This document shows, piece after piece, positions 17,130 through 18,748 of a stretch of DNA of 44,384 nucleotides. The notes under the pieces were generated by a model. It did not search any database. It saw nothing but the letters and a program-made list of their open reading frames with translations, and was not told the origin of the DNA. Where the stretch lies: the NCBI GenBank assembly GCA_902516345.1, contig CABXYJ010000006.1, forward strand, positions 1 to 44,384, in the 5' to 3' direction. The stretch is from an uncultured Pelagibacteraceae bacterium. Its GTDB lineage: Bacteria > Pseudomonadota > Alphaproteobacteria > Pelagibacterales > Pelagibacteraceae. Made by a program: the position numbers and the translations under genes. Positions within the stretch are counted from its first letter, which is position 1, and every line of letters begins with the position of its first letter.

Positions 17130-17471
17130 ATGTTAATTAAATATATTAGTTTTTTAATAGGAATTATTTGGTCATACTCCATAATAAAAACTCAGTCAGT
17201 ATTTAGCAAAAAGGCTGGTATTCTATTTAAAATATTTATTACCAAAGTTTCTTGGCTCACTTTTGTAGTAGCTTGTTACTTTGGTTATAAAAATTTCACA
17301 ATTAAGTCTGTTATTATCGGTGTTGTAATTGGAATTTTGTTAGTAAATATCGGTTTTTATTTTCTAAAAAAATATATAAATCAAAAGTTTAATGAAAAAC
17401 AAATAATAATTTTCAAAAGTTTTTTCGAATATACCTTGATTTTTTTAGTAATTTACTTCGTTTTATTTTAA
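17130..17471 (+). CDS. small integral membrane protein, unknown
   Basis: The 113-residue product has about four predicted membrane helices (roughly 2-20, 40-56, 60-82, 92-113) separated by short basic loops (KKYINQKFNEK). I see no family motif. It starts 39 nt after the secreted-protein gene on the same strand, so it may be the third gene of that group or independent. Its stop overlaps the 3' end of the convergent glutaredoxin gene by 9 nt. Hydrophobicity spread over the whole frame supports a real gene, but no function can be given. Confidence 0.6.
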   Translation: MLIKYISFLIGIIWSYSIIKTQSVFSKKAGILFKIFITKVSWLTFVVACYFGYKNFTIKSVIIGVVIGILLVNIGFYFLKKYINQKFNEKQIIIFKSFFEYTLIFLVIYFVLF

Positions 17472-17717
17472 GAGATCTTGTAATTTATTTTCTTTCTCTA
17501 AAGCCCTTACTTCATCATAGCCACCAATATGTTCGTCATTAAAAAAAATTTGTGGAATAGTTCTTTTTCCATTTGCTTTCTTAATCATTTCATCCATTGC
17601 ACCATCTACTTTACCAATATTAATTTCATTATATTGAGCGTTATTTCTAGTTAATAATCTTTTAGCGGCATCACAGTAATTGCAAAATGGCCCAGTATAA
17701 ATTGTAACTTTTTTCAT
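17463..17717 (-). CDS. grxC: glutaredoxin 3 (GrxC type)
   Basis: This is a dithiol glutaredoxin of 84 residues that reduces disulfides and glutathione mixed disulfides with GSH. The active site is CNYC at residues 12-15 (most GrxC have CPYC). The GSH-binding TIPQIF motif with its cis-Pro and the GGYDE motif are both present. It starts 3 nt after the DUF2805 gene on the minus strand, forming a two-gene unit. The Pro-to-Asn change within the active site should shift redox potential but keeps both cysteines. Confidence 0.92.
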   Translation of the reverse strand: MKKVTIYTGPFCNYCDAAKRLLTRNNAQYNEINIGKVDGAMDEMIKKANGKRTIPQIFFNDEHIGGYDEVRALEKENKLQDLLK

Positions 17718-17720
17718 ATT

Positions 17721-18017
17721 TTATAAATAATCACCTTTTCGAATTTTACCAGACAATTGTTTTCTAGAATATTCAAATTTTTTTCGGTGTTTAATACTTT
17801 TTTGATGTACTCTTTTTCTCCATAATCTAAAAGAGGAAGGTTTAAGAGATCTTCTCATGATCTTAATAACATCAGACTCTCGATATCCAGTTTTTTTCTC
17901 TATTTCCTCAAAAGTGATCCTATCGGCCCAGGCCGCCCAGATGACCCAGTCTGGATCTTCGATATTTGGCTGTGGATTTTTGACACGGGTAATAGGCCTG
18001 TGACCTTTTTTTTTCAT
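17721..18017 (-). CDS. DUF2805 / TIGR03643 family protein
   Basis: The 98-residue basic protein matches the DUF2805 pattern: DWVIWAAWADRITFEEIEKK, then a predicted helix-turn-helix-like segment TGYRESDVIKIMRRSLKPSS, then FRLWRKRVHQKSIKHRKKF. I know no established function; the basic tail and HTH-like core suggest nucleic-acid contact, but that is inference. The start at 18017 is chosen because AAGGA lies 7 nt upstream on this strand; the longer frame from 18044 lacks such a site. It is followed by grxC. The leader hairpin of the divergent LysE-type gene lies just upstream. Confidence 0.82.
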   Translation of the reverse strand: MKKKGHRPITRVKNPQPNIEDPDWVIWAAWADRITFEEIEKKTGYRESDVIKIMRRSLKPSSFRLWRKRVHQKSIKHRKKFEYSRKQLSGKIRKGDYL

Positions 18018-18076
18018 AAAATCCTTATATTTGAAAAAAATCAATAATGCATTTTTTTTTGATTCTGTTATATTAC

Positions 18077-18133
18077 TTTAGATAGTCCTTCTTAGCCATC
18101 TTTAGCTCCCGGTTTTTAAGGACTATCCTTTTC
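18077..18133 (+). promoter_or_regulatory. leader of LysE-type gene: shared motif plus hairpin that sequesters the ribosome-binding site
   Basis: TTTAGATA (18077-18084) and TCCTTCTTAGCC (18086-18097) repeat the blocks seen before ilvB, with the same 36-nt distance to the ATG. GATAGTCCTT (18081-18090) and AAGGACTATC (18118-18127) are a perfect 10-bp inverted repeat around a 27-nt loop. AAGGA at 18118-18122 is the only good Shine-Dalgarno for the ATG at 18134, and it is paired in the stem. This is the layout of a translational switch. No T-tract follows the stem, so it is not a standard terminator. Confidence 0.6.
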
Positions 18134-18748
18134 ATGCTCCCCCTAGATTTTATCCTCTTTTTACAAATCATTTTTTTTCTTTTTATTACTCCAGGGACAC
18201 CAAGGATAGTGATTATTTCTTATTCAATGAATTATGGGGTGCAAAAGTGTGTGTGGACAGCTTTAGGAGATATTACTGCAAATATTGTTCAAGCAACTTT
18301 AGTAATCTTTGTATTAGGAGCTTTTTTATCTAATAACCCAATTTTTTTAAATGTGATCAAATGGGTTGGAATATTTTATTTACTTTATTTAGCTTACGAC
18401 GTTTATAAATCAAAACCTAAATCAATTAATTCAAAGAAAGTTTATTCAAAAAGTATTTTTTCATTTTTTAGAGATGGTTTTTTAGTTGCAGGCACAAGCC
18501 CCAAAGCATGGTTATTTTTTCCACTAATATTCCCACAATTCATTGATTTTAATTCAAATTATATAATTCAATTTTTTATTTTAATCGGTACTTATGTTGT
18601 TTTAGATTTTCTATCTTTGATTGGTTACGCCATACTTGCACAAAAATTAATCGTATGGATAAAAGCTAATCCAAAAACTATCAATACAATCTCAGCGAGT
18701 GTTTTAATTATAATTGCTCTAATTATTATTGTGTCACAACAATATTAA
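18134..18748 (+). CDS. LysE/RhtB-family amino-acid exporter
   Basis: The 204-residue membrane protein has about six helices. It carries the family opening FITPGTPRIVIISYSMNYGVQK (the usual PGP read as PGT) followed by ALGDITANIVQATLVIF. The mid-segment DGFLVAGTSPKAWLFFPLIFPQF matches the RhtB 'NPKA..FF....PQF' motif. Relatives export lysine/arginine, threonine, homoserine or leucine to avoid toxic pools. Expression is probably controlled by the hairpin leader that hides its Shine-Dalgarno. It stands just upstream of the Liv cluster, 87 nt before the binding-protein gene. Exact substrate unknown. Confidence 0.82.
   Translation: MLPLDFILFLQIIFFLFITPGTPRIVIISYSMNYGVQKCVWTALGDITANIVQATLVIFVLGAFLSNNPIFLNVIKWVGIFYLLYLAYDVYKSKPKSINSKKVYSKSIFSFFRDGFLVAGTSPKAWLFFPLIFPQFIDFNSNYIIQFFILIGTYVVLDFLSLIGYAILAQKLIVWIKANPKTINTISASVLIIIALIIIVSQQY

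Follow-up and report, generated by a model that had tools for sequence, protein, structure and literature searches.

The rhtB element (RF01814) of Pelagibacter is probably an antisense RNA against the translation start of an unlinked gene for a tiny basic protein

Introduction

What does a perfect hairpin directly upstream of an exporter gene control? The question is raised by a locus in the window, the whole 44,384-nucleotide stretch of DNA analysed here (contig CABXYJ010000006.1 of an uncultured Pelagibacteraceae bacterium), where such a hairpin occupies positions 18081-18127 of the plus strand between a LysE-type exporter gene and a divergent gene unit. A first-pass annotation, made from the letters of the DNA, had proposed that the hairpin is a riboswitch, thermosensor or protein-controlled leader of the exporter gene and that it belongs to no known class.

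The hairpin and its Rfam family

The outer stem consists of GATAGTCCTT (18081-18090, plus strand) and its exact reverse complement AAGGACTATC (18118-18127), separated by 27 nt, just as the annotation had described. Within it, AGCC (18094-18097) pairs with GGTT (18111-18114) in an inner helix that is backed by the pair counts given below and leaves a loop of 13 nt (18098-18110). The predicted fold of the region gives this hairpin at -17.1 kcal/mol (z -2.71), a value equaled by 2 of 200 shuffles. The 3′ arm holds AAGGA, which is paired in the fold and lies 11 nt 5′ of the ATG at 18134; since no second Shine-Dalgarno (SD)-like stretch was seen ahead of this ATG, the claim that the stem hides its sole good ribosome site stands. 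The gene that follows, rhtB (18134-18748, plus strand), is indeed of the LysE type (Pfam PF01810, E 1e-25). On the other side of the hairpin, both on the minus strand, are a DUF2805 gene (17721-18044; PF10985) and the next gene in the divergent unit, encoding a glutaredoxin (17463-17717; PF00462).

The class of the hairpin is known, contrary to the annotation. An Rfam scan identified it as RF01814, the “rhtB element,” with 81.4 bits (curated cut-off 55) over 18063-18145, the full model from 1 to 83; with E 7.7e-15 for this match, the hairpin is beyond chance. The traits of the family, a bulged hairpin with a conserved loop, are present here, and Rfam types the family as an sRNA. The element was described in ‘Candidatus Pelagibacter ubique’ by Meyer et al. 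2009 (PMC2704228), with the same sequence, structure and usual site before rhtB as found here. In the part of that article available to us, the element is a bulged hairpin with a conserved loop that stands mostly upstream of rhtB and carries 6-9 U in about half of the copies; a terminator or attenuator role and a DNA operator are both mentioned, no target is named, and the function is left open.

RF01814 was matched in 229 of the 397 genomes of the order, with 227 matches above the cut-off and 228 in the window's own genus. The sole match in another genus (locus L153 of genome G318) was sub-threshold, contained neither loop nor stem and was rejected. A class-wide sample gave matches in 4 of 385 genomes, three of them of the window's genus, its own genome included; the fourth (L063 of G501) was also sub-threshold, with a loop-like ATCTTTAGCTCC and no stem in the stretch shown, and was likewise discarded. 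With L063 and L153 left out, the hairpin was placed in 161 of 163 loci. A contig labelled as Cytophagales (L376, JAPYTU010000121.1) carries a complete Pelagibacter-type hairpin and an rhtB-like start, which is probably a binning error. Carriage by phages was considered and dropped: two IMG/VR contigs (L469 and L470) fit a 19-base loop pattern by chance, have no stem and represent the same phage structural-gene region, in which the match falls on a phage ribosome-binding site (RBS). The target pattern described below was found in none of the IMG/VR viral contigs.

Conservation of the RNA structure on the plus strand

In 33 distinct sequences, which came from a structure-aware search and had their arms placed by fewest mismatches, so that the statistics lean to pairing, 98.5% of the 461 pair cells were standard; in the same set, pairing dropped to 18.5-48.1% when the structure was slid as a control. 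In the stem, 10 pair cells were altered on both sides compared to 2.9 in shuffles, and 0 of 500 shuffles reached 10. The outer eight pairs of the stem are intact in 161/161 loci, and one pair of the inner helix occurs as GU, AU or GC among the relatives. A Pelagibacteraceae hairpin from Baikal deep water (L356) is identical to that of L149 in G125 and has two changes in the loop region (AACC and CTCTCGG).

Over the 14 pairs, we counted 37 G-U cells and no A-C cell on the plus strand; 27 of the 37 fall at one position of the inner helix and 10 elsewhere, and the selection bias toward pairing is not obviously one toward G-U over A-C. Because G-U keeps the pairs in the plus-strand RNA while the minus-strand RNA would lose them as A-C, the plus strand is indicated as the working strand. 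A conserved RNA structure on the plus strand is thus supported. The same counts bear on the DNA operator mentioned by Meyer et al., in which a regulator would bind the inverted repeat in the space separating two divergent genes. The hairpin does usually lie between divergent genes, and a DNA dyad would covary as well, but G-U substitutions break a DNA dyad and keep an RNA pair, and conservation is as high in the loop as in the arms; we regard this reading as extremely unlikely.

Neighboring genes and control of rhtB

Genes around the hairpin were called mechanically as ORFs and compared with the window proteins. On this basis, the DUF2805 gene is the nearest and commonest 5′ neighbor of the hairpin (148/161 loci), and rhtB is its usual but not obligatory 3′ neighbor, with a start within 60 nt in 123/161 loci. 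No rhtB was seen within this distance in the other 38: in 16 of these the first gene lies 120 nt or more away, in 13 a different plus-strand gene follows, in 7 the next gene is convergent, and 2 end at a contig edge. At one locus (L079), the hairpin precedes the glutaredoxin gene in the same orientation instead of diverging from it, as a local inversion would produce.

These counts bear on cis control of rhtB, in which the 3′ arm would hide AAGGA until a metabolite, heat or a protein opens the stem. The pairing of AAGGA just ahead of the ATG and the frequent proximity of rhtB speak for such a role. However, 36 of the 161 loci have no nearby rhtB, 7 of them with a convergent next gene, and in the 123 rhtB loci the distance varies from 4 to 14 nt between stem end and first ATG and from 9 to 19 nt between AAGGA and ATG. 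Moreover, a 4-base SD precedes just 14 of the 40 long window ORFs (read from the first ATG), and thus rhtB need not use one. This reading also leaves unexplained why the loop is antisense to the RBS of another gene (see below). We therefore consider it unlikely that control of rhtB in cis is what the hairpin does.

The more specific proposal of a riboswitch or thermosensor leader fails on the same observations, as such an element would be expected to be kept beside the gene it controls, and this one is not. In particular, an amino-acid riboswitch before the exporter was dropped because the element persists without rhtB, and no ligand is needed to account for a frozen loop whose exact complement is the RBS with start codon at another locus. 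From the annotation's idea of translational control, what holds is that initiation is the likely level; what is conserved is not control of the LysE gene, given the loci without it nearby. Cis control is thus not the conserved role of the hairpin, and a side effect on rhtB is possible. In the window, from 18134 on, and in relatives, rhtB begins with codons (ATGCTCCCCCTAGATTTT) that resemble the hairpin loop GCTCCC.

A terminator or attenuator of rhtB, consisting of hairpin and U-tract and considered by Meyer et al., was also weighed. At least 6 T follow directly after the stem (up to two C being tolerated ahead of the run) in 63/161 loci, and the U-runs given for about half of the copies in the available part of PMC2704228 go in the same direction. 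However, the other 98 loci have no such run, so that not every copy of the hairpin would terminate transcription. The window is one of them: its short U-rich tail CTTTT (18128-18132, plus strand) has one C and four T and would be a weak terminator tail, so that the annotated lack of a T-tract is accurate for the window and not for the 63 related loci. As termination, in addition, does not require an invariant loop, a terminator is improbable as the main role.

The loop is antisense to the start of a tiny gene

The loop of the hairpin, CAUCUUUAGCUCCC, hardly varies and is the exact antisense of GGGAGCUAAAGAUG, a stretch made up of the SD plus start codon of an unlinked gene; in the reverse orientation the loop reads CGGGAGCTAAAGATGGC, an SD with a start codon. 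An antisense search of the window's own genome gave AGGGAGCTAAAGATGCC as the best match besides the hairpin itself. It contains the exact 14-mer GGGAGCTAAAGATG, located outside the window at G000:C13:22923-22936, which is the RBS of a gene for MPKRRKKAKKAKKKAKKKAKKRRRR and the exact complement of the antisense core CATCTTTAGCTCCC (18097-18110, plus strand). In this genome (930 kb, 77% complete), the tiny-gene RBS is the sole non-hairpin site with two or fewer mismatches to the 17-mer antisense. Two further sites with three mismatches were rejected, as their start codons open frames of 2 and 12 codons and an open frame crosses each. In a set of loci read around such matches in the genus, all those other than the hairpin itself are the start of the same small gene. 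The duplex between loop region and target was predicted at -31.7 kcal/mol, compared to a mean of -14.0 and a best value of -25.6 in 1000 mononucleotide shuffles; the best of the 45 window ORF starts reached -19.5 kcal/mol with the same loop region.

The protein encoded by the target gene is 21-35 amino acids long, reaching 50 in other genera, and is rich in Lys and Arg as well as Ala. The gene is present in seven genera of the order, that of the window and six without the element. Where its flanks are shown, a TTGACA-type promoter-like box and a CGAATC/GATTCG hairpin are found 5′ and a terminator-like hairpin 3′; in two target loci, the gene is flanked by two others that, from reading the sequence, resemble those of a fatty-acyl-CoA ligase and of CarD. 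Three of the tiny proteins had no match in Pfam or NCBIfam at E up to 10, and five target loci had none in Rfam at the gathering score. With E up to 1, Rfam gave sub-threshold matches in four target loci, including RF01814 opposite the target strand in two. Another of the sub-threshold matches, at 1360-1405 of the own-genome target locus (L201), was to RF00489, a plasmid ctRNA family, with 26.1 bits against a cut-off of 50, a level at which matches are mostly chance. The protein may be a micro-protein associated with the nucleoid or with ribosomes.

Since the reversed loop is an SD with a start codon, the minus strand could itself be the working one, as an RBS and short leader ORF (MAKKDYLK*) before the DUF2805 gene that has a protein or RNA binding site in common with the tiny gene. 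The reverse orientation is a good SD with an ATG, DUF2805 is the commonest gene on that side, and a common binding factor would also yield the matched alleles described below. Yet the stem changes are G-U on the plus strand and never A-C (37 to 0), and the short ORF is cut down to MAK*, MAR* or MA* in many copies. On the strand test and the broken frames this reading was dropped as very improbable.

Conservation of the complementarity

An exact GGGAGCTAAARATG was found in 116 of 121 Pelagibacter genomes, two copies in 66, one in 47 and three in 3, and none in 5; its reversed control gave no match in the same 121 genomes. Extra matches in G855:C4 and G833:C16, similar coding-like stretches outside the leader, were set aside as chance, and with such matches in existence two copies are not always an element and a target. 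In a blind search, the pattern left the RBS free and fixed only the hairpin ahead of it, the ATG and, two bases after the ATG, a TAA. It found one leader each in 65 of 80 chosen genomes, and 65/65 of these read GGGAGCTAAA[G/A]ATG; the 15 genomes that the pattern did not read include two of other genera and several with a target-model match. In the sample, a single element and a single target are present in all seven single-contig Pelagibacter genomes.

The variable base of the pairing is matched between the two loci. Among the 57 genomes in which loop and target are both known, it is C in the loop and G in the target in 48, and U and A, respectively, in 9, with no discordant genome. On a tree of the flanking DNA this corresponds to three allele changes on the best tree, two of them forced by starred branches; such 2-3 independent changes are too few for significance in a sign test, and long branches join at the largest U-allele group. 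In addition, G352 has a loop U and no target found, G820 an A target and no element seen, and the altered loop base in G308 still pairs with its target as U-G. The complementarity is nevertheless imperfect in places: many targets, among them that of the window's genome, are of the MPK type and carry a single uncompensated mismatch adjoining the core, and the AACC-loop genomes G076, G107 and G325 keep ATGGCT targets, with one A-C mismatch outside the core.

Six genera without the element serve as a comparison. Among 29 tiny-gene leaders from the 30 genomes searched, found by a model built from leaders including the RBS, GGGAGCTAAA occurs in 0/29. GGAG is present in 29/29, and the spacer varies (GGGAGATAAAG, GGGAGAAAAG, GGGAGATAAG, GGGAGATAACG, GGGAGTTAAAG, GGGAGGAACGGAG and AGGAGACTAAAG are examples), being frozen only where the hairpin exists. 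RF01814 was not found at its cut-off in the searched genomes of these genera, and two other genera are represented by three single-contig genomes, each with the target gene and no element. Complementarity to the initiation region of the target, as is expected for an antisense sRNA, has thus been kept in evolution.

Element and gene do not always appear together within the genus. The exact target RBS is present in 16 of 20 listed same-genus genomes without an RF01814 match, and the element in 15 of 20 listed same-genus genomes without a target-model match (these 15 being 86-96% complete). As 18 of the 20 listed element-less genomes also had no close match to the neighboring glutaredoxin gene (8 of the 18 have weak, probably paralogous matches), the whole locus may be absent or unassembled there; in G114, the glutaredoxin gene is present and the element was not found, and in G251 that gene is at a contig edge. 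Losses and assembly gaps look alike in these genomes, which limits how far the pair of element and gene can be called obligatory.

Proposed mechanism

An extended -10 promoter-like element, TG-T-TATATT (18066-18074, plus strand), precedes the hairpin. In 144 distinct upstream sequences, related and hence not independent, a hexamer with 5 or 6 of the 6 bases of TATAAT was present in 135 (mean of 300 shuffles 54, highest 68) and a TG three bases ahead of the hexamer in 91 (mean 9, highest 18). The hexamer is most often located 12 nt 5′ of the stem (56/144), and no clear TTGACA-like -35 was seen in the upstream columns. From this spacing we infer that the transcript should start at the foot of the stem, near 18080-18081. 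The available main text of a SAR11 start-site mapping study (PMC5069720) does not contain “rhtB”.

The computed features, namely a plus-strand RNA structure, a complementarity that is exact in most genomes, a frozen target spacer and matched alleles, lead us to favor with good confidence a model in which the hairpin at 18081-18127 is the body of a self-promoted antisense sRNA, located at the 5′ end of the rhtB transcript, that blocks translation of the tiny protein. Transcription would begin at the hairpin's own promoter. Where U-rich sequence follows, many transcripts would end at the stem, as a small RNA of its own; in other copies the hairpin would form the 5′ end of the rhtB mRNA. The 13-nt loop and adjoining bases would then find the SD and start codon of the tiny-gene mRNA single-stranded, pair there over 14-19 nt and block ribosome binding. 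That the RNA is transcribed, that it pairs in the cell and that the effect is repression are all inferred from sequence, repression being likely because the pairing covers SD and start codon. With the Hfq model TIGR02383 at E 0.001, 13 Pelagibacteraceae genomes gave no match whereas 5 of 14 control genomes did, and a long exact loop may therefore stand in for a helper protein.

One could go further and propose a two-way switch, in which pairing between the loop and the tiny-gene mRNA silences the tiny protein and at the same time opens the hairpin, frees AAGGA and allows rhtB to be translated. We find this extension doubtful. If true, the gene of a micro-protein resembling nucleic-acid-binding ones and that of an amino-acid exporter would regulate each other by direct mRNA-mRNA pairing of unlinked genes, without Hfq, in abundant marine bacteria.

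Comparison with known systems

Described in 2009, RF01814 has had no known function, and the bacteria that carry it are among the most abundant groups on Earth. Where the available part of PMC2704228 leaves the function open, the present analysis proposes a target gene, a working strand and a mode of action. In the literature searched, we found no description of a pairing between the RF01814 loop and the tiny gene, or of the tiny protein; “RF01814” was not named, and the phrase “rhtB motif” occurred only in Meyer et al. Within this literature, what is new is therefore the proposed target, working strand and mode of action, the family itself being known. The element gains a concrete candidate target and mode of action in organisms without a detected Hfq, and the antisense sRNA model, if true, would be an instance of two unlinked loci of a streamlined genome connected by antisense regulation. 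It also draws attention to a tiny basic protein of seven genera that family models do not match in the three cases searched.

Several known systems share parts of this arrangement. The Hfq-dependent trans-acting sRNAs of enteric bacteria act on a distant mRNA by blocking its SD and start codon, as is proposed here, but the Pelagibacter element would do so by long exact pairing in a hairpin loop, in a family whose 13 searched genomes lack an Hfq match. RalA/RalR and IstR-1/TisB are trans-encoded type I antitoxin systems and, like the present pair, combine a trans-encoded RNA with a strong stretch of complementarity to the mRNA of a small protein. Type I toxins are small, hydrophobic and membrane-active, whereas the tiny protein is hyperbasic, rich in Lys/Arg; and a type I antitoxin RNA would be expected always to accompany its toxin gene, whereas the tiny gene also occurs in six genera where RF01814 reached its cut-off in none of the genomes searched. 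Finally, in Sok/hok and the plasmid copy-number ctRNAs, antisense RNAs meet their target through a hairpin loop with YUNR-type bases. The element resembles them in having a single strong hairpin and a loop that is complementary to a translation start and contains YUNR-type bases. It differs in that its target is at another locus and not on the opposite strand, and in that the two partners are a chromosomal gene pair kept across a genus.
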